From: an uncultured Spirochaetaceae bacterium
GTDB lineage: Bacteria; Spirochaetota; Spirochaetia; Sphaerochaetales; Sphaerochaetaceae
Direction of reading: 5' to 3'
Assembly: GCA_944389145.1 (NCBI GenBank)
Contig: CALXLH010000008.1
Location: 1 to 64,000, forward strand
DNA length: 64,000 bases
Shown here: piece after piece, positions 1,282 through 52,624 of the stretch
Numbering within the stretch: position 1 is the stretch's first letter
Layout of the letters: every line of letters begins with the position of its first letter
Program-made: the position numbers and the translations under genes
The notes under the pieces: model-generated
What the model was told of the DNA's origin: nothing
Seen by the model: only the letters and a program-made list of their open reading frames with translations
The model's database searches: none

Positions 1282-2244
1282 ATGACAGAGAGTGCAATAT
1301 CAAGGATCATAGGCCCCCTCATGCTCGCCCCGCTCGCAGGATACACAGACAAGGCATTCAGGGAAATCGCAGAATCCCTCGGTGCAGATGGCGCTGTCAC
1401 GGAGATGGTAAGCGCGGAAGGCCTTGCCAGAGGCGGTGAGAAGACAGAGGCCCTGCTGGAGCGCTATCCGGGAGAGAAGGCACTGGTCATGCAGATATTC
1501 GCCCCCTCCGATGATCCCGTGGCCCGATGCATGGAAAGGCTGATCGCGCATGCGCCCTCTGTCATAGATATCAACTGCGGATGCCCGGTGCCAAAGGTGG
1601 TGAAGACAGGAGCCGGATCCGCGCTGATGAGGGAGCCTGGCATGATCGGGCGGATCGTACGGACGATAAAGGCTGCCACGGACACTCCGGTATCGGTGAA
1701 GTTCCGCCTCGGCTGGGACAGCTCATCGATCAATTATATGGATTTCGCAGAGGAAGCCGCATCGGCAGGCGCAGACATGCTGACGCTCCATGCCAGGACC
1801 AGGGCCCAGGGCTATTCAGGAAATGCAGACAGAAGCGCTTTCCGCACCCTCTCCGGACATTTCAGCGGCAGCGGCATCCTCATATACGGCTCAGGAGATG
1901 TCTTCACGCCGGAAGATGCGGCTGAGATGATCGATGGATACGGCCTTGATGGCGTCATGTTCGCACGAGGAGCCATCGGCAATCCATTCATATTCCGCAT
2001 GACGAAGGAATACATGCAGAAGGGAAGCTACACGCTCCCATCCATAGGTGAACGGATAGAGACTGCAGAACGGCATCTTTCCCTCGCTGTCTCATACTTC
2101 GGTGAGCATACGGCATGCAGGGAGATGAAGAAGCAGCTCATGGCATATCTGAAAGGCATAAGCGGAGCTGCCTCAGCAAAGGCAGCCATAGGCAGGGCAT
2201 CGACAGAAGAAGAGCTGCGCGCTGCCCTTCATACCCTTCTCTAG
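1282..2244 (+). CDS. dus: tRNA-dihydrouridine synthase
   Basis: This is a 320-residue FMN-dependent enzyme that reduces uridines in the tRNA D-loop. It shows the Dus family order: LAPLAGYTDKAFR at the N-terminus, then VMQIFAPSDD, then DINCGCPVPKVVKTGAGSAL with the catalytic cysteine, then KFRLGWD, HARTRAQGYSG and YGSGDVFTPEDA, followed by a short helical C-terminal domain. Length and motifs fit the DusB subgroup, but DusA/B/C cannot be separated with certainty by eye. There is no Shine-Dalgarno sequence before the ATG, and a -10-like hexamer sits 7 nt upstream, so the mRNA may be leaderless. The stop TAG shares the four bases CTAG with the stop of the convergent phosphatase gene. Confidence 0.93.
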   Translation: MTESAISRIIGPLMLAPLAGYTDKAFREIAESLGADGAVTEMVSAEGLARGGEKTEALLERYPGEKALVMQIFAPSDDPVARCMERLIAHAPSVIDINCGCPVPKVVKTGAGSALMREPGMIGRIVRTIKAATDTPVSVKFRLGWDSSSINYMDFAEEAASAGADMLTLHARTRAQGYSGNADRSAFRTLSGHFSGSGILIYGSGDVFTPEDAAEMIDGYGLDGVMFARGAIGNPFIFRMTKEYMQKGSYTLPSIGERIETAERHLSLAVSYFGEHTACREMKKQLMAYLKGISGAASAKAAIGRASTEEELRAALHTLL

Positions 2245-4250
2245 GCATTCTTCACCAGCGTCACTATATTCTTCCCATCCCTATGCTCATAGGACATATG
2301 GTCCATGAACTTACGTACTATATGGATGCCAAGGCCACCTATCGCCCTGTCATCAGCGCTTAGCGTGATATCCGGCTCAGCAGCGGCAGTAGGATCATAC
2401 ATCCTGCCGTCATCGATCAGGCGGAAGATGTATGACGATGAATCGCGGCAGAACTCGATCGTGACGCTGGATGCACCGCCATAAAACACTATATTGGAAA
2501 AAAGCTCATCGATGCATACGCCCGCCTGTGACGCGACAGGCCCATCGGCACCGGCCTCGGAAAGGACCTCCTCAACGAACGAAAGCACGTCCTCAAGCTG
2601 GCCAAGCTCCGCCTTCACGCTTATATGCCTCACATCATCTTCTCCCGCATATGCCCTGACATCGAAAGCCAGCATCGTCATATCATCAAAGGCTTCCGCC
2701 TCACCGACGAAAGCGTCAACGCTCTCCTTCATATGCGCCAGCATGGACTGCACATCAAGGCCACGCCCCGCATTCAGAGCCTCGACCATCCTATCCTCAC
2801 CGAAGAGCGTGCTTGATCCATCAGTGGCCTCCGGCACGCCATCAGTATACAGGAAGAGCCTGTCTCCCGGAGAAAGGAAAAGCGTACGAGGATGATAGCT
2901 CAGGCCTTCCATTCCAGCAACCACGAAATCGGTCTTCTCCTTCACCAGCGTAAACATGCCGCCAGCCCTTGCCACCGCAGGATACTCATGGCCTGCATTG
3001 ACATAATCTAGGCGCCCCGTGGAGATATCATAGATACCGAGCCATACGGTGACGAACAGCCCCTCCTCGTTGTTCTCGCAAAGCTGATCATTGACCTTCA
3101 TGAGCACCGTCGCGGGATCCTCGCCAAGCAGGCACCGGTTCTTTATCATCGTCTTGGCAATCACCATGAATAGCGCCGCAGGAACGCCCTTGCCTGACAC
3201 ATCAGCCATCACCAGCGCGATATGAGTGTCATCGACGAGGAAGAAATCATAGAAGTCACCGCCGACCTCCCTTGCCGGTGTCATGGAAGCGAAGATATCG
3301 AACTCATGGCGATCAGGGTACGGAGGGAAGACCGAAGGCAGCATGCCTGCCTGTATCTCTGTCGCAACCGAGAGCTCCGCGCTTATCCTCTCCTTCTCTG
3401 CGGTGATGGCAGTGAGGTTCTCCACATAGCTCACTATATCCGTCTCCATCTGGCCTATCACCGAGGCAAGGCTGCCTATCTCATCATTCGAGCGTATGGC
3501 CTCCAGCACATCAAGCTGCTCGACATTATCCTGCGCGAACCGCTGAGCCTCATCGGCGATGGTGAGGATAGGCGTTATGACGCTTCGCCGCAGGAAGTAG
3601 ATATAGATGATGAGGAAGAGAACGACAGCAGCCGCCGTGACCTCGAAGACGTGCAGGACATAGGTAAGGCGCGCGCTGTTAAGGGCTGTCATGGCCTTCT
3701 CCACTCCTATCATCGCAACGATGGCCCCAGATGAATCCTCCACTGGAATCGCTGCGGTCGTATGGGCCCCGGAGGCTTCTGAATATGAATAGAAGTAGAC
3801 AGCGCTACGCTCACCTGTCGTCATCATCCGCGCAACCTCCTCATGGTATTGCGGATCCATATCCTCGGCCTTATAGCCAAGCTCATAGCGCGAGAAGCCC
3901 GTGTCCGGATGGATAGCGTCATAGATATAGGTGCTCGTGGTATATCCATCGGAAAGCTCAGTCACATAGATGGTATAGGTGTCGGTAGATATCACAAGGG
4001 AATCAAGAAGGGCCTCTATCCTGTCATACTCCTCATCCGTCTCTCCCGTACTGAGGTATCTATCAAACTCATCAGGATTCAGGTATGTCTTCACCGTCTC
4101 CGCTATCTCATACGCCGAACGGTTGTACTGATCCTCCAGCACAGTCGTGAACTCACGGTATCCCATATAGCTTATCGTTATGCAAAGCAGCACGCTGAGC
4201 ATAAGCACGCTTGCGATAAGCTTGGCGGACAGTCCCAGCCTCATCTTCAT
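2241..4250 (-). CDS. Membrane sensor with PP2C/SpoIIE phosphatase and RsbW-like kinase domains
   Basis: The 669-residue protein has an N-terminal membrane segment (about residues 10-28), an extracytoplasmic sensor domain of about 165 residues, a second membrane segment (about 197-217), a HAMP-like linker and a short coiled coil. A SpoIIE-type PP2C domain (about 300-535) follows, with EVGGDFYDF, MADVSGKG, NAGHEYP, LYTDGVPEATD and FDDMTML, so the metal-binding aspartates are present. The last 120 residues are an HATPase domain with an intact N box (DELFSN), G1 (DDGRMYDP) and G2 (GGLGIHIV). One polypeptide may therefore both phosphorylate and dephosphorylate a STAS protein; such a protein is the first gene of this operon. 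The start ATG overlaps the GH3 stop by 4 bp, which suggests translational coupling. Confidence 0.88.
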   Translation of the reverse strand: MKMRLGLSAKLIASVLMLSVLLCITISYMGYREFTTVLEDQYNRSAYEIAETVKTYLNPDEFDRYLSTGETDEEYDRIEALLDSLVISTDTYTIYVTELSDGYTTSTYIYDAIHPDTGFSRYELGYKAEDMDPQYHEEVARMMTTGERSAVYFYSYSEASGAHTTAAIPVEDSSGAIVAMIGVEKAMTALNSARLTYVLHVFEVTAAAVVLFLIIYIYFLRRSVITPILTIADEAQRFAQDNVEQLDVLEAIRSNDEIGSLASVIGQMETDIVSYVENLTAITAEKERISAELSVATEIQAGMLPSVFPPYPDRHEFDIFASMTPAREVGGDFYDFFLVDDTHIALVMADVSGKGVPAALFMVIAKTMIKNRCLLGEDPATVLMKVNDQLCENNEEGLFVTVWLGIYDISTGRLDYVNAGHEYPAVARAGGMFTLVKEKTDFVVAGMEGLSYHPRTLFLSPGDRLFLYTDGVPEATDGSSTLFGEDRMVEALNAGRGLDVQSMLAHMKESVDAFVGEAEAFDDMTMLAFDVRAYAGEDDVRHISVKAELGQLEDVLSFVEEVLSEAGADGPVASQAGVCIDELFSNIVFYGGASSVTIEFCRDSSSYIFRLIDDGRMYDPTAAAEPDITLSADDRAIGGLGIHIVRKFMDHMSYEHRDGKNIVTLVKNA

Positions 4251-5911
4251 CTTCCTTCCTCCTTCTCATGCCTTCCGGCCACGGCTGCCAGGAACTCCCT
4301 CATATCCTTCGAGCGCACGATAAGCGCAGGCTTATACTGCGCCATGGCCCTGCCAGTGCTGGCGATACGCTCCTCATAGCATCTGAAGGTCCCTATCGGC
4401 ATGAATCGTACATGAGGCATCGATATATCCCCCATCAGGCGGCAGCCTCTGTAGCCATAGCTAGCCCGGCAGAGACACTCATCCAGCACCTTGTCAGCAT
4501 CGACCCATCCACTGCCCTCGATATATGCGATATAACGGCCGGGACGCATGGAGAAATCCACATCGAAGCAATAACGTGGCGCATGGATACCCATACGCCC
4601 GCAGAAGAGGCGCATCGCCTCTCCAAGCTGTTCCGCGTCCACCTTCTCATCGGCCACGTTCAGCATCTGGTTCACGCGATGGCAGAACCTTATCACGGGA
4701 GCCTCTCCCAGGAAGCCAACGACTTCCAGCACATCCCTCATGCGATAGCGATACAATCCCGAATGGTTCGTGAATACCAGCTCATAGCGCATGCCGCGCT
4801 CAAGCTCTCCCATAAGCAGAGGATGATCTTCTTCCCCGTCAGCCGGAATGAACTCGAAAAGCCCCGCCGCAGGGATAAGGATATACTCATCAGGACGTCC
4901 TACCCCATTGGCGATGCTGAGGAATCCCTCAGAAGCACCATAGATGAAATGATGCATCGGAATATCCGGGCCATAGATGGAGATAGCCTCCTCATAAACA
5001 GGAAAGCTCTGCCCTCCTATTGCGATGAGATACCTCATCTCCGGCCATATCCTGCGGATCATATCATGCGCATCCTCATCCATGCCCAGTCCCCTGAGCT
5101 CCGCCGCCCTGCCTGGATCTGGGGGAAGCCATGCCCTGAGCCGTTCCCGCCAATGGGATGAAAGGTGTATGGATGGATCCACATCTCCTCTCTCGATATC
5201 GCGGAGAAGAAGGGACCAGTTGTTCCTTATATAATCCAAGGCGCTCACGATGCGATGGAGAAACACGCTGTGTATCGATGCAAGATGACGTTCGGCAAGC
5301 GCAAAGCGTACCTTCACATAGGTAAGATCCTCAAGCTCATCGGGAAACAGAACCTCCTTAGGAGCAGAGAAGGAAGAGACGTCGAATGAGCCATCCCGGT
5401 CGAGCCATTGATACAGCGATGCAGAGCGCACTCCGCACATTACCCCCGACGGAAGCGCCGTCCTGGCGAACTCCCCGACCTGAAACACCTTGCGCGAAAG
5501 GATATCAGGGCAGGATGATGCGAAGTATTCATCAACCATGCCCATGATGCCACAATGGATGAAATCGAGATGCACGCGCATATCATGCTCAGTCACCGGA
5601 ACATATTTCGGCACGTCGGTACTGCCGGATGTTATCGCGTAGTAGACTGGATCAGAGGCCGTAAGCACTCCATGTTCCCCGGCTATCATCCGTTCTATGC
5701 ATTCATGGTAATCCTCATATGTGGTTATCGGGACGCGTGACTGGAAATCTTCCACGCCTTCGATCCCTGCAAAGCCATGACGGCTGCCATACTCCGTATC
5801 CGCATTCTCGGATAGGATCGACCGAAGCTCGCGGCGCTGTACCGCAGAGGCTGCCTTCGCATCCATCCGAAGCTTTTCCAGAGCCTTTCTTCCGATAGCC
5901 TTATTATCCAT
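4247..5911 (-). CDS. GH3 family acyl-adenylating (acid-amido synthetase-like) enzyme
   Basis: The 554-residue protein carries the three ATP-binding motifs of the GH3 family of the ANL superfamily: a phosphate loop ITSGSTDVPKYVPVT, the motif YGASEGFLS (plant form YASSE), and NHSGLYRYRMRDVLEVVGF followed by RVNQMLNVADEKVDAEQL. GH3 enzymes activate a carboxylic acid as an acyl-AMP and join it to an amino acid; bacterial members are mostly uncharacterised. The substrate cannot be read from the sequence. Nothing suggests a signal peptide, so it should be cytoplasmic. An AAGGGTGG ribosome binding site precedes the ATG. It lies between the MATE fusion and the phosphatase/kinase gene in one operon, which suggests that its product is exported by the MATE protein; this is inference. 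Confidence 0.85.
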   Translation of the reverse strand: MDNKAIGRKALEKLRMDAKAASAVQRRELRSILSENADTEYGSRHGFAGIEGVEDFQSRVPITTYEDYHECIERMIAGEHGVLTASDPVYYAITSGSTDVPKYVPVTEHDMRVHLDFIHCGIMGMVDEYFASSCPDILSRKVFQVGEFARTALPSGVMCGVRSASLYQWLDRDGSFDVSSFSAPKEVLFPDELEDLTYVKVRFALAERHLASIHSVFLHRIVSALDYIRNNWSLLLRDIERGDVDPSIHLSSHWRERLRAWLPPDPGRAAELRGLGMDEDAHDMIRRIWPEMRYLIAIGGQSFPVYEEAISIYGPDIPMHHFIYGASEGFLSIANGVGRPDEYILIPAAGLFEFIPADGEEDHPLLMGELERGMRYELVFTNHSGLYRYRMRDVLEVVGFLGEAPVIRFCHRVNQMLNVADEKVDAEQLGEAMRLFCGRMGIHAPRYCFDVDFSMRPGRYIAYIEGSGWVDADKVLDECLCRASYGYRGCRLMGDISMPHVRFMPIGTFRCYEERIASTGRAMAQYKPALIVRSKDMREFLAAVAGRHEKEEGR

Positions 5912-5920
5912 ACGCCACCC

Positions 5921-7663
5921 TTAAAGCAGGACCTGCACGGTGTTCACGCCGAATGTCCGCTGGTAAAGCACATGCTCGGCTATCCTTGAGATGAGCTCCG
6001 CTCCGAGATACTGCTCGTCATCCTTGTCATGATCTGGAGAGAATGGATTGAATTCGAGGCCTCCATAGCGTATGCGCAATCCTGTGACATCATGAACGGA
6101 GAACATCCTCACGTCAAAGCGCACAGGCGTACCGCCATTCACTTCCGCTATCAGCGTCATGATCTCCTCGACAGCCAGGCCAAGGCTCATGGAATCCTTC
6201 ATCCCGATCCCGATCTCAGAGCAGAAGTCAGAGAGCCGTTCGCTCGTGGTGCAGATCTCCTCCACGCTATCCGAGACAGAGAAGTTCAGCACACGCCCTT
6301 CCCTCTCTAGCGACTGGTCCAGAAGAAGGAAGCGCGTGCAGATGGGATGCACATGATGATAGATTCCCGATGCGATGAGCCAGATGATGACGGTAAGGAC
6401 CTCGCTGGAGAAGAGGAACAGCCAGGGTGAAAGGCCAAGCCTCAGTGCCGCGAAGAGAGAGAGCCCCGCCATCAGGAACGATCTGGAGAAGATGATCAGG
6501 TTGGCAAGCCACGCATGTCCTGAGATATTGTAGTGAACGGAGAGTATGCTGCAGAGAAGCCCGGGGAACATGCCGAGCGAGAGGAAGGCCATCGCAGGAT
6601 AGAGCGATGCATCAAGGCCGTATAGCGAGGATATCACATCGGAAAGGGCAATGATAGCTATGGAGAAGGCTACAGAGCAGAAGAAGCCCGTACGCCATTC
6701 ACGCCTCACGAGAAGGATAGTGCTGCCATTATCGCGCTCACCGCTATAGATGCCAAGCATCGGCGATGCCGCCTGGGGCACTCCATCGGTCACCGCAAGG
6801 GAAAATGCGCTTATGCAGTTGACTGCGGTAAATGCTGCGACAAGGCTGCTGCCTCCTGCCGCCATGAGCATGGCATTCACGGCCAGGAGACGCAGTGTCT
6901 GGAAGAGATTGTTCAGGGCGGACGGGCTTCCATCGATCGCGATGGCCTTCCAATCCTCTGCCCGGCGTATGATGGTACGGCACATATGAAAGCCGCTCTG
7001 CCTTCCGGAAAGCCAGGCAAGGCCCATGGTGCAGGCAATCGCCGTGGATATCACGCTGGCCCAGGCCGCACCTTCTATGCCCATGTCCAGCGGATAGAGG
7101 AAGATATAGTCAAGGGCCGCATTTCCTCCTCCCATGACAAGCATCATCCAGGTAACGAGGCTGGCGCGTCCATCCATCCGCAGGAACCAGAAAGGAACAT
7201 ACACAAGTATCTTAGGCAAAGCCCCTATGATGGTGACGGATGCATAGCCATACACAAGCGGGACAAGGGCAGCCTCATCTCCACAGAGCGCAACCGAAAG
7301 CGGGCGGCAGGACGCAAGCCCGATGATCGTGACCACGGCAGAGGCTATCAGGCACAGCCATACAGAGGTGCTGTAAAGCGCCTGTCCCATGGCATCATCC
7401 TGCCGTCCTATGGACTTAGAGGCCTGTATAGCCGTTCCGGAAACGATGAAGGAGCCAATCACGCAGAGAATCAGGTAGACAGGCACGCAGAGGCTTATCG
7501 CCGAAAGCCCGTCGGTACCGATACGCTGTCCGACAAGGATTCCATCGACAAGTATGTTTATATTGCCGCTGAGGATGGAGAGGATGCAGGGAAGAAGGCT
7601 CCGATGGAAGGCCTTTCGCAGGAATATCTCATCCTGCCGCAGCTGCAAAAGCTCAACACCCAT
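5921..7663 (-). CDS. MATE-family transporter fused to a degenerate RsbW-like ATPase domain
   Basis: Residues 1 to about 445 form a polytopic MATE/MOP-type carrier with about 12 hydrophobic segments and typical features such as DGILVGQRIG and a polar loop after helix 2. Residues 454-580 are a cytoplasmic domain that follows the anti-sigma kinase (HATPase_c_2) pattern but has lost its signatures. The N box reads VEEIMTL where an Asn is expected, G1 reads RYGGLEFNP without the Asp, and G2 reads YLGAELI instead of GGLGL. This suggests a binding module rather than a kinase. The natural ligand would be the STAS protein encoded 24 bp upstream in the same operon. Usual MATE proteins are about 450 residues, so the extra domain is the odd feature. 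The transported substrate is unknown. Confidence 0.82.
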   Translation of the reverse strand: MGVELLQLRQDEIFLRKAFHRSLLPCILSILSGNINILVDGILVGQRIGTDGLSAISLCVPVYLILCVIGSFIVSGTAIQASKSIGRQDDAMGQALYSTSVWLCLIASAVVTIIGLASCRPLSVALCGDEAALVPLVYGYASVTIIGALPKILVYVPFWFLRMDGRASLVTWMMLVMGGGNAALDYIFLYPLDMGIEGAAWASVISTAIACTMGLAWLSGRQSGFHMCRTIIRRAEDWKAIAIDGSPSALNNLFQTLRLLAVNAMLMAAGGSSLVAAFTAVNCISAFSLAVTDGVPQAASPMLGIYSGERDNGSTILLVRREWRTGFFCSVAFSIAIIALSDVISSLYGLDASLYPAMAFLSLGMFPGLLCSILSVHYNISGHAWLANLIIFSRSFLMAGLSLFAALRLGLSPWLFLFSSEVLTVIIWLIASGIYHHVHPICTRFLLLDQSLEREGRVLNFSVSDSVEEICTTSERLSDFCSEIGIGMKDSMSLGLAVEEIMTLIAEVNGGTPVRFDVRMFSVHDVTGLRIRYGGLEFNPFSPDHDKDDEQYLGAELISRIAEHVLYQRTFGVNTVQVLL

Positions 7664-7687
7664 CTGATGTCATCCTGAAGATACTGC

Positions 7688-7984
7688 CTACTCAATCGTG
7701 AGGATGCTGGAGAAACCAGTGACTTCAAAGACATCCATGACGGCAGGCTTCACGTTCCTGATCGTCATCGTCCCCTGCCTGTTCATTACCTTCTGCGCCG
7801 CAAGAAGCACCCGCAGGCCAGCCGATGAGATATAGTCGAGATCGGAGAAATCGATCACGAGCGCGGATGAGGTACCAAGCCCTTCCTTGATGGCCTTGTC
7901 CAGCTCTGGCGCCGTGAGGGTATCTACCCGGCCTGAAACCGTGAGGAAGAATGAAGAACCATCGTGCTTCTTGTCTATAGTCAT
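7688..7984 (-). CDS. STAS-domain anti-sigma-factor antagonist (RsbV/SpoIIAA-like)
   Basis: A single-domain STAS protein of 98 residues with the family core ALVIDFSDLDYISSAGLRVLL. Ser53/Ser54 occupy the position phosphorylated in SpoIIAA and RsbV. The ATG has a perfect ribosome binding site, AAAGGAGG (7993-7999 region), with 7-nt spacing. It is the first gene of the operon that continues into the MATE-ATPase fusion, the GH3 enzyme and the phosphatase/kinase. No sigma factor gene is linked, so the switch may act on the transporter domain rather than on transcription. That last point is inference. Confidence 0.92.
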   Translation of the reverse strand: MTIDKKHDGSSFFLTVSGRVDTLTAPELDKAIKEGLGTSSALVIDFSDLDYISSAGLRVLLAAQKVMNRQGTMTIRNVKPAVMDVFEVTGFSSILTIE

Positions 7985-8012
7985 ACATCAGCCTCCTTTG
8001 GCAACGAGGCTT

Positions 8013-8041
8013 ATCCTACGCCCAAGGATATCCAGAGGCAA
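8013..8041 (-). promoter_or_regulatory. Probable promoter of the STAS-MATE-GH3-phosphatase operon
   Basis: On the minus strand, TTGCCT (8036-8041), a 17-nt spacer and TAGGAT (8013-8018) each match the sigma-70 hexamers at 4 of 6 positions. The predicted leader is about 20 nt long and contains the AAAGGAGG site. Confidence 0.45.
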
Positions 8042-8047
8042 TCAATG

Positions 8048-8083
8048 TCCGATGAATGATGATTTATCTCCGATGAATGATGA
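8048..8083. repeat. Two 15-bp direct repeats spaced by 21 bp, upstream of the STAS operon
   Basis: TCCGATGAATGATGA occurs at 8048-8062 and again at 8069-8083. The 21-bp period is two helical turns, so both copies face the same side of the DNA. They lie directly upstream of the putative -35 of the STAS operon and within the shared region with the divergent PurD-like gene, where an activator would bind. Confidence 0.6.
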
Positions 8084-8183
8084 AGCATGCCTATACATGA
8101 TCGATCCCAGTCCCTCCTCCCCCTGCGATTTCCTTTGATTTTCCAATTTCGGTGTGTTAGCGTTTATTCCAAAGGAGGAGTGT

Positions 8184-51232: not shown

Positions 51233-52624
51233 TCATCCATCGGATCTCCGAGGGGCATTATCCTTGATCCTGCCGCTCCTTATGCCCTTCATGAGATGCA
51301 TCAGCGTGATGACAGCCAGGGTTGCCATGATGGACTCGGCCACGGGCTGGGCATACGGAAGCCCATATAGAGGCAAGAGACGATTGAGCAGCAGAAGCGC
51401 AGGGATCTCAAGCACGATCTTCCTAGTCACCGCGAAGGCCAGCGAATACCCTCCCCGGCCCACCGCCTGGAACACGCCCACTGCAAGGAAATCGACAGCC
51501 AGGAGCGGAACGCCGAGGCAGAAGCCCCTGAGGAACCGCGTGCCGTAATCGATTATCACGTCATTGCGCATGAAGACCGATATGAAGAGCGGAGCCGCGG
51601 CATAGTACAGGATAGCCACGCCAAGAAGCACGCTTATGACGATACGGGCCGCATATGCGATCGCGCCTCGCATCCTCTTGTAATCACCGCTGGCAAAAGT
51701 ATAGCTCACGAGCGGCATCACGCCCTGCGTAAAGCCATTGGCCAGGCTGAATGGGACATTGTTCAGCCTCTGGGCTATCCCCATGGCGGCAACGGCATCG
51801 GCACCATAGGCAGATGTGAAGTTGTTGAGGATAGTCATCCCTGTGACATTCAGGAGGTTCTGTATCGATGCAGGAATACCTACTGCGCATACTCCCGCTA
51901 TGATATAGAGCTTCCACGAAAGATGCCGAGGATCGATCGCCACATAGGTATTCCGTCCTCTCGATATGACAAGCACGATGAAATACAGGACCGCGACGCA
52001 GTTGGATATCATCGTGGCAAGACCTGCCCCCTCTGCTCCCATATCGAGGAACTGAGGAAGCACGAAGAGCGGATCGAGGATGATATTCAGGAAGCAGCCG
52101 CTCATCGTTCCGATGCTTGCGTGCATGGCAGAGCCCTCTGCCCTGACAAGGTAGGCAAAGACGACATTGAGTATCGAAGGCGCAGATCCCGCAACGACAG
52201 TCCACTTGATGTATCCCCTGGTAGCTTCCATCGTCACATCATCGGTTCCGATGAGCGCAAGCAGCTGATCGTTGAAGAAGAAGGCAAGGGATGAGAACGC
52301 CAGCGAGCAGATAAGCGCGGAATATAGGCCGAACGAAGAGCTGCGGTATGCGCTCTGATAGTCCTTCCTTCCCAGAGCCCGGCTCATCATCGATGAGGCG
52401 CCTACCCCGAAGAGGTTGTTGATGGCATTGAACGCAAGGAGCACAGGAGCGGAAAGCGTGACGGCTGCATTCTGAACGCTATCGCCGAGCATCCCCACGA
52501 AGAAGGTATCGGCCAGCGAATATATCGTCATCACAAGGGAAGAAAGCACGGTAGGAACCGCAAGCCTCAGCACAGCCGTGCTTATCTTCTCGCTCTCAAA
52601 TAGCCGCAGCCTCTCCTCTGTCAT
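51233..52624 (-). CDS. MATE-family efflux transporter
   Basis: A 463-residue protein with about 12 membrane segments and MATE features: LVMTIYSLADTFFVGMLGD in helices 1-2, FNAINNLFGVGASSMMSRAL and a symmetric second half with GMTILNNFTSAYGADAVAA. It would export cationic drugs or metabolites with Na+ or H+ exchange; the substrate is unknown. Unlike the MATE gene at 5921-7663 it has no extra C-terminal domain. No ribosome binding site precedes the ATG. TTGCAT, a 17-nt spacer and TAAAAG end 6 nt before it, which suggests a leaderless mRNA. Confidence 0.9.
   Translation of the reverse strand: MTEERLRLFESEKISTAVLRLAVPTVLSSLVMTIYSLADTFFVGMLGDSVQNAAVTLSAPVLLAFNAINNLFGVGASSMMSRALGRKDYQSAYRSSSFGLYSALICSLAFSSLAFFFNDQLLALIGTDDVTMEATRGYIKWTVVAGSAPSILNVVFAYLVRAEGSAMHASIGTMSGCFLNIILDPLFVLPQFLDMGAEGAGLATMISNCVAVLYFIVLVISRGRNTYVAIDPRHLSWKLYIIAGVCAVGIPASIQNLLNVTGMTILNNFTSAYGADAVAAMGIAQRLNNVPFSLANGFTQGVMPLVSYTFASGDYKRMRGAIAYAARIVISVLLGVAILYYAAAPLFISVFMRNDVIIDYGTRFLRGFCLGVPLLAVDFLAVGVFQAVGRGGYSLAFAVTRKIVLEIPALLLLNRLLPLYGLPYAQPVAESIMATLAVITLMHLMKGIRSGRIKDNAPRRSDG

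Follow-up and report, generated by a model that had tools for sequence, protein, structure and literature searches.

Introduction

Partner switching is best known for freeing sigma factors, and several STAS modules have no known output. In Mycobacterium smegmatis two RsbW homologues share one STAS protein, RsfB. One of them, RsbW2, has retained the N, G1 and G2 motifs and alone phosphorylates RsfB; the other, RsbW1, lacks kinase activity and binds RsfB solely in the form with Ser-63 unphosphorylated (PMC7693655). A split between kinase and receptor is thus already established by experiment. In the SypE protein, kinase and phosphatase domains for the STAS protein SypA are present in one polypeptide (PMC10120452). 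A STAS protein can also act on a transporter component, as MlaB binds and supports the ABC ATPase MlaF (PMC7367683). Finally, OlsH, a GH3-type N-acyl ornithine synthetase, condenses an amino acid with a fatty acid (PMC12493201).

We describe here an operon from an uncultured Spirochaetaceae bacterium (contig CALXLH010000008.1, positions 1 to 64,000, hereafter the window) in which the candidate output of a partner switch is covalently joined to a transporter and encoded together with the kinase, the phosphatase and the STAS protein. Our literature search, of partial coverage, found no description of MATE-HATPase fusions, of partner switching of transporters, or of RsbW-type domains built into transporters as modules. 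A transporter as the output of a partner switch therefore appears to be new.

Results

The operon is transcribed from the minus strand in the order STAS, MATE-pseudokinase, GH3, and a protein combining HAMP, PP2C and kinase domains (Table 1). The start of the phosphatase gene overlaps the GH3 stop codon (ATGA). A partner-switching set is encoded together, comprising a STAS protein with a conserved serine, a PP2C phosphatase and an intact kinase. The serine of the SSAGLR motif, the presumed phosphoacceptor, is invariant in 18 aligned relatives. No sigma-factor gene is present in the operon, whose four products are the STAS, MATE, GH3 and HAMP-PP2C-HATPase proteins and whose flanking genes are dus and a purD-like gene. 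No site was found immediately upstream of the STAS gene when promoters and terminators were scanned for. The GH3 protein scores 78.7 bits against the NCBIfam model for OlsH (NF052613), below the cut-off of 620 bits. The 2.1 Mb genome to which the window belongs contains about 20 matches to the MATE family, one of them at 51701-52603, which is many for a small genome.

Table 1. Coordinates of the operon in the window and of degenerate domains carried by other transporters
Feature	Coordinates	Strand	Remarks
Inserted segment (whole operon; dus and purD-like gene flanking)	2245..8120		right-hand end approximate
HAMP, SpoIIE-type PP2C phosphatase and intact RsbW-type kinase domain, membrane protein	2241..4250	-	SpoIIE 158, HATPase_c_2 72, HAMP 25.2 bits
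Intact kinase domain of the phosphatase protein	2250..2615	-	N-box Asn, G1 Asp and GGLG present
GH3-family acyl-amido synthetase, possible cargo source	4247..5911	-	Pfam GH3 215, GH3_M 73, GH3_C 45.8 bits
MATE open reading frame	7663-5921	-	580 aa; residues 455-580 plus stop, 6301-5921
MATE transporter body, residues 1-450	6314..7663	-	Pfam MatE 61.2 bits
C-terminal RsbW/SpoIIAB-fold pseudokinase domain, residues ~455-580	5924..6301	-	AlphaFold2 model, PDB fold matches
Degenerate N-box VEEIMTL	6152..6172	-	Glu kept, Asn to Leu
Degenerate G1 box RYGGLEFNP	6044..6070	-	Asp to Tyr
Degenerate G2 loop YLGAELI	5990..6010	-	replaces GGLG
STAS-domain protein, presumed switch protein	7688..7984	-	98 aa; Pfam STAS 61.5 bits, TIGR00377 71.3 bits, over cut-off
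ABC-type fusions	L017:7156-8250, L079:2-505, L092-L106		
SDF-type fusions	L069:9747-11390, L107-L118, L120		

The MATE protein exceeds the Pfam MatE cut-off (61.2 against 24.9 bits) and stays below that of TIGR00797 (107.9 against 147.4 bits). Its C-terminal domain gives a sub-threshold match to Pfam HATPase_c_2, with 16.7 bits for the whole protein and 21.5 bits for the domain alone against a cut-off of 27.4. The fold could be assigned independently of this match, from an AlphaFold2 model of residues 447-580 (pLDDT 83, pTM 0.79; alignment input restricted to eight B-type sequences, see below) and its matches in the PDB. The top Foldseek matches were SpoIIAB, RsbW, UsfX and the RsbW domain of Rv1364c, the SpoIIAB chains giving E values of 6e-7 and TM scores of 0.74-0.79. 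Alignment with SpoIIAB 1tid gave a Z score of 14.9 and an rmsd of 2.6 over 126 residues (VIA-align). Searching the PDB by sequence, with this domain as the query, returned only chance-like matches, and the fold assignment rests on the model. In a profile comparison the intact kinase domains matched the MATE-borne domain with an E value of 6.9e-6. The model of the full-length MATE protein was poor (pLDDT 66.6). An earlier reading of the DNA, made from the sequence alone, had assigned the RsbW fold to residues 454-580 and had set structure prediction of this region as a test beforehand; the predicted fold is HATPase-like, with SpoIIAB as its best PDB match, and the assignment is borne out.

The sequence-only reading had also held that the ATP-binding signatures are missing from the MATE domain and retained in the phosphatase protein, and both statements agree with our analysis. 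In the MATE domain the asparagine position of the N-box (VEEIMTLI) is Leu504, with the N-box glutamate, Glu500, retained. The aspartate of the G1 box (RYGG) is replaced by Tyr533, and the GGxG loop is gone from the G2 region (YLGAEL), where one glycine, Gly554, survives. The phosphatase protein has all three signatures (DELFSN, DDG and GGLGIHIV). Its HATPase_c_2 domain is the sole one above the curated cut-off in the window genome, where the other matches are the sub-threshold MATE-borne copy and weak ones, and it is therefore the only candidate kinase of the RsbW family for the STAS protein.

Relatives of the MATE protein, at 51-52% identity, are found in seven Lachnospiraceae or Eubacterium records. 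In these the gene order is a MATE-kinase (A copy), STAS, a MATE-pseudokinase (B copy), GH3, PP2C and a free-standing kinase (C copy). GH3 thus occupies the same position in the Lachnospiraceae operons as in the window. Compared with that order, the window operon is missing the A copy and has the C copy fused to the phosphatase. We gathered 86 MATE-HATPase fusions, mostly from Lachnospiraceae, with some from other Clostridia and from spirochaetes, and built a tree from the MATE body alone, leaving out the HATPase domain. The window protein falls into a clade of 21 proteins (SH-aLRT 98). Its sister group there consists of nine B copies from Lachnospiraceae (SH-aLRT 100), and two other spirochaetes (L078, L079) contribute more distant members to the clade. 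Both the N-box asparagine and the G1 aspartate are absent from all 21 members, the asparagine being replaced by Leu, Val, Ile, Met or Ser and the aspartate by Tyr, Cys, Asn or Ser. Both residues are retained by 54 other fusions outside the clade and also by the copies that stand free or are fused to PP2C within the same operons. Among non-MATE matches only L017_7156, L057_2, L069_9747 and L079_2 lack the two residues, and these turned out to be joined to other transporters or to be pieces of such fusions.

Residues Glu500, Gly535, Gly554 and Asn574 are invariant within the pseudokinase clade, and outside the catalytic signature Ser462, Val463, Arg519, Gly572 and Asn574 are likewise invariant. 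In the pairs measured, dN/dS of the B domains was 0.07-0.24, close to the values of the intact A (0.08-0.15) and C (0.04-0.21) copies. The MATE pseudokinase domain is thus under purifying selection and the loss of its ATP site is ancient. Recent decay, or a pseudogene, is rejected by the tree, with loss in 21 of 21 members, and by dN/dS. The earlier description of the signatures as "decayed" is therefore misleading, the domain being a conserved pseudokinase rather than an eroding kinase.

In a second group of five fusions the asparagine only was lost, separately. These proteins (L043:8203, L046:8465, L047:9800, L059:8435 and L066:8375) carry Ala, Ser or Leu at this position, keep the aspartate and adjoin PP2C genes; they possibly represent an intermediate state. 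Most stand-alone MATE-HATPase fusions (L026, L032, L036 and L056, for example) keep both residues. They show RDDC or RDNC in place of the kinase DxG and IGIRM in place of GGxG, and are possible kinases. Outside the pseudokinase clade, too, some MATE-HATPase fusions (L044, L064, L067) have GH3 genes nearby, so that the link between GH3 and MATE is wider than the window type of operon.

Motif loss in the MATE-borne domain correlates with a nearby intact kinase (Fisher p 3e-6), but this is a plain count and, because of shared ancestry and too few independent losses on the tree, we do not take it as independent evidence. Moreover, intact MATE-borne sites occur even beside an intact kinase, in L040, L044, L086 and L088 and in the A copies. 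The sequence-only reading is partly supported. A division of labour between the intact and the degenerate copy gains support from the sole above-cut-off kinase domain, from the ancient loss and purifying selection in the other copy, and from the RsbW2/RsbW1 precedent; the docking role that the reading gave to the degenerate copy is putative.

The host is one species of a spirochaete genus, and the relatives of the operon with the same gene order are found in Lachnospiraceae. In keeping with a spirochaete host, its ribosomal protein L2 has 8fmw, the ribosome of Borreliella burgdorferi, as best match. Among the species sampled the window species alone has the operon, which is absent from 39 congeners, either at the site or in the sequence sampled; the pseudokinase domain was not found in 35 congeners. 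In 32 of the 39 congeners dus and the purD-like gene are 37-108 bp apart; in one they are separated by 553 bp, and in six they are on separate contigs. The DNA match to the closest congener ends at 2204 and restarts at 8116. Since the flanking genes adjoin in congeners and the DNA match breaks and resumes around the operon, we conclude that about 5.9 kb carrying the operon was cleanly inserted here, presumably by horizontal transfer. The inserted segment (2245-8120) showed neither a transposase nor an integrase gene. A contaminating contig was considered and rejected: the genes flanking the operon match congeners and adjoin each other there.

In Lachnospiraceae a related degenerate domain is also found at the C-terminus of GlnQ-type ABC ATPases and at the N-terminus of SDF sodium:dicarboxylate symporters (Table 1). 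In profile comparisons the MATE-borne domain matched the ABC type with an E value of 1.9e-11 and the SDF type with 6.4e-10; for the intact kinase domains these values were 3.6e-7 and 3.9e-10. The ABC- and SDF-fused copies mostly have Gln, Lys or Arg at the asparagine position, and none keeps the aspartate. Several of these fusions stand in gene runs with partner-switch genes. With w for the degenerate domain, the runs read w-SDF, STAS, MATE-w, PP2C, kinase (L024); STAS, ABC-w, MATE-w, GH3, PP2C, kinase (L017); STAS, PP2C-kinase, w-SDF, STAS (L144); and STAS, w-SDF, PP2C, PP2C (L147). A degenerate transporter fusion in a run with partner-switch genes is also present in L123. Many transporter fusions stand alone, with neither STAS nor PP2C within the stretches read. 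Petralouisia muris, a cultured member of the Lachnospiraceae, has the operon as well, and in its genome an ABC-type and an SDF-type fusion adjoin each other (L126).

STAS domains fused to an APH/choline-kinase-like domain (L030:3087-4262, L057:7677-8855, L079:495-1700, L033:16326-17906) were found close to MATE-HATPase fusions or PP2C genes. One protein among these loci is a STAS-APH-HATPase fusion with an intact kinase domain.

Discussion

We consider it probable that the MATE protein has, in its C-terminal domain, the kinase-dead receiver, that is the output, of a self-contained partner switch that targets the transporter itself rather than a transcription factor. This proposal draws on the gene order conserved in Lachnospiraceae (STAS, MATE-pseudokinase, GH3, PP2C, intact kinase). 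The HAMP-PP2C-HATPase membrane protein would sense a signal and control whether the STAS protein is phosphorylated: the intact kinase domain would add a phosphate to the serine of SSAGLR, and the PP2C domain would remove it. The STAS protein, most likely in its unphosphorylated form, would dock on the pseudokinase as SpoIIAA does on SpoIIAB. A receiver lacking ATP chemistry could not reset the switch by itself. Docking may then alter the conformation or the coupling of the MATE body and so turn export on or off. The cargo is probably an N-acyl amino acid or a similar amide, since a GH3 enzyme is encoded in the same operon and the bacterial GH3 enzyme OlsH makes N-acyl ornithine.

The chief rival, which we regard as unlikely, is that the degenerate domain is a dimer partner of the intact kinase borne by the phosphatase or, in Lachnospiraceae, of the intact MATE-borne A copy. 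It would tune the activity of that kinase up or down and tether it to the transporter, and binding of the STAS protein to the degenerate copy would not be required. Intact and degenerate copies indeed co-occur in operons, and the SpoIIAB/RsbW fold family is known to dimerise. However, the intact copy is a free-standing protein in most operons, and the A copy is absent from the window genome. The degenerate domain might alternatively still bind nucleotide, either to sense energy or nucleotide levels on behalf of the transporter or to work weakly as a kinase through a rebuilt active site. Residual nucleotide binding is conceivable because the N-box glutamate is invariant and some glycines remain, and Gly535, Gly554 and Asn574 do not vary in the clade either. 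Yet the asparagine and aspartate are lost in all 21 members, with varied replacements that are unlike a new conserved site, and we find this explanation quite improbable.

A membrane-bound trap for a sigma or transcription factor, with the MATE body as a sensor and not a pump, deserves little credence. RsbW and SpoIIAB do bind sigma factors, and kinase activity is not needed for this, as in RsbW1 (PMC7693655), but the operon has no sigma-factor gene and homologous domains are carried by three unrelated kinds of transporter. That the domain is a non-functional relic in the course of being lost has next to no chance of being right. The catalytic signatures are gone, as such a relic would have it; but 21 divergent descendants have kept the domain, with the dN/dS values given above and invariant residues outside the catalytic signature, so that selection on the pseudokinase is indicated and the relic explanation is in practice refuted.

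The receiver proposal can be extended to the other fusions. ATP-dead RsbW-fold receivers would be carried by three or more unrelated kinds of transporter (MATE exporters, GlnQ-type ABC ATPases and SDF dicarboxylate symporters), and a shared STAS/PP2C/kinase switch would act through them to turn transport on or off and leave transcription untouched. We put the chances that this is an undescribed, general mode of control at about even. If true, MATE, SDF and amino-acid ABC transporters in Lachnospiraceae and in certain spirochaetes would be under post-translational on/off control, and the domain would clearly exemplify the conversion of a kinase into a pure receptor of phosphorylation state. The window circuit apparently has one copy of each part, and its host has no other RsbW-family domain above the cut-off; the circuit could therefore be rebuilt in E. 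coli.

With regard to known systems, the window GH3 protein is, like OlsH, a GH3-like bacterial enzyme, yet it scores far below the cut-off of the OlsH model. The HAMP-PP2C-HATPase protein resembles SypE in having kinase and phosphatase in one polypeptide, and Rv1364c has RsbU and RsbW domains. However, the window protein is a membrane protein with a HAMP domain, whereas SypE has a central receiver domain, and neither SypE nor Rv1364c has a transporter partner. In the MlaB-MlaF complex the STAS protein binds the ABC ATPase directly, with no RsbW-type domain, kinase or phosphatase in the complex. The MATE domain shares its fold with the anti-sigma-factor kinases SpoIIAB and RsbW (HATPase_c_2, GHKL fold), whose genes likewise accompany those of a STAS protein and a SpoIIE-type phosphatase; it differs from them in lacking the N-box asparagine, the G1 aspartate and GGxG, in being fused to a transporter, and in belonging to an operon without a sigma-factor gene. 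The closest parallel in the division of roles is RsbW1/RsbW2/RsfB of M. smegmatis (PMC7693655), with one motif-intact kinase homologue and one kinase-negative receptor for the unphosphorylated STAS protein. There the receptor, RsbW1, is a soluble anti-sigma factor, whereas the putative receptor in the window is part of a MATE transporter.
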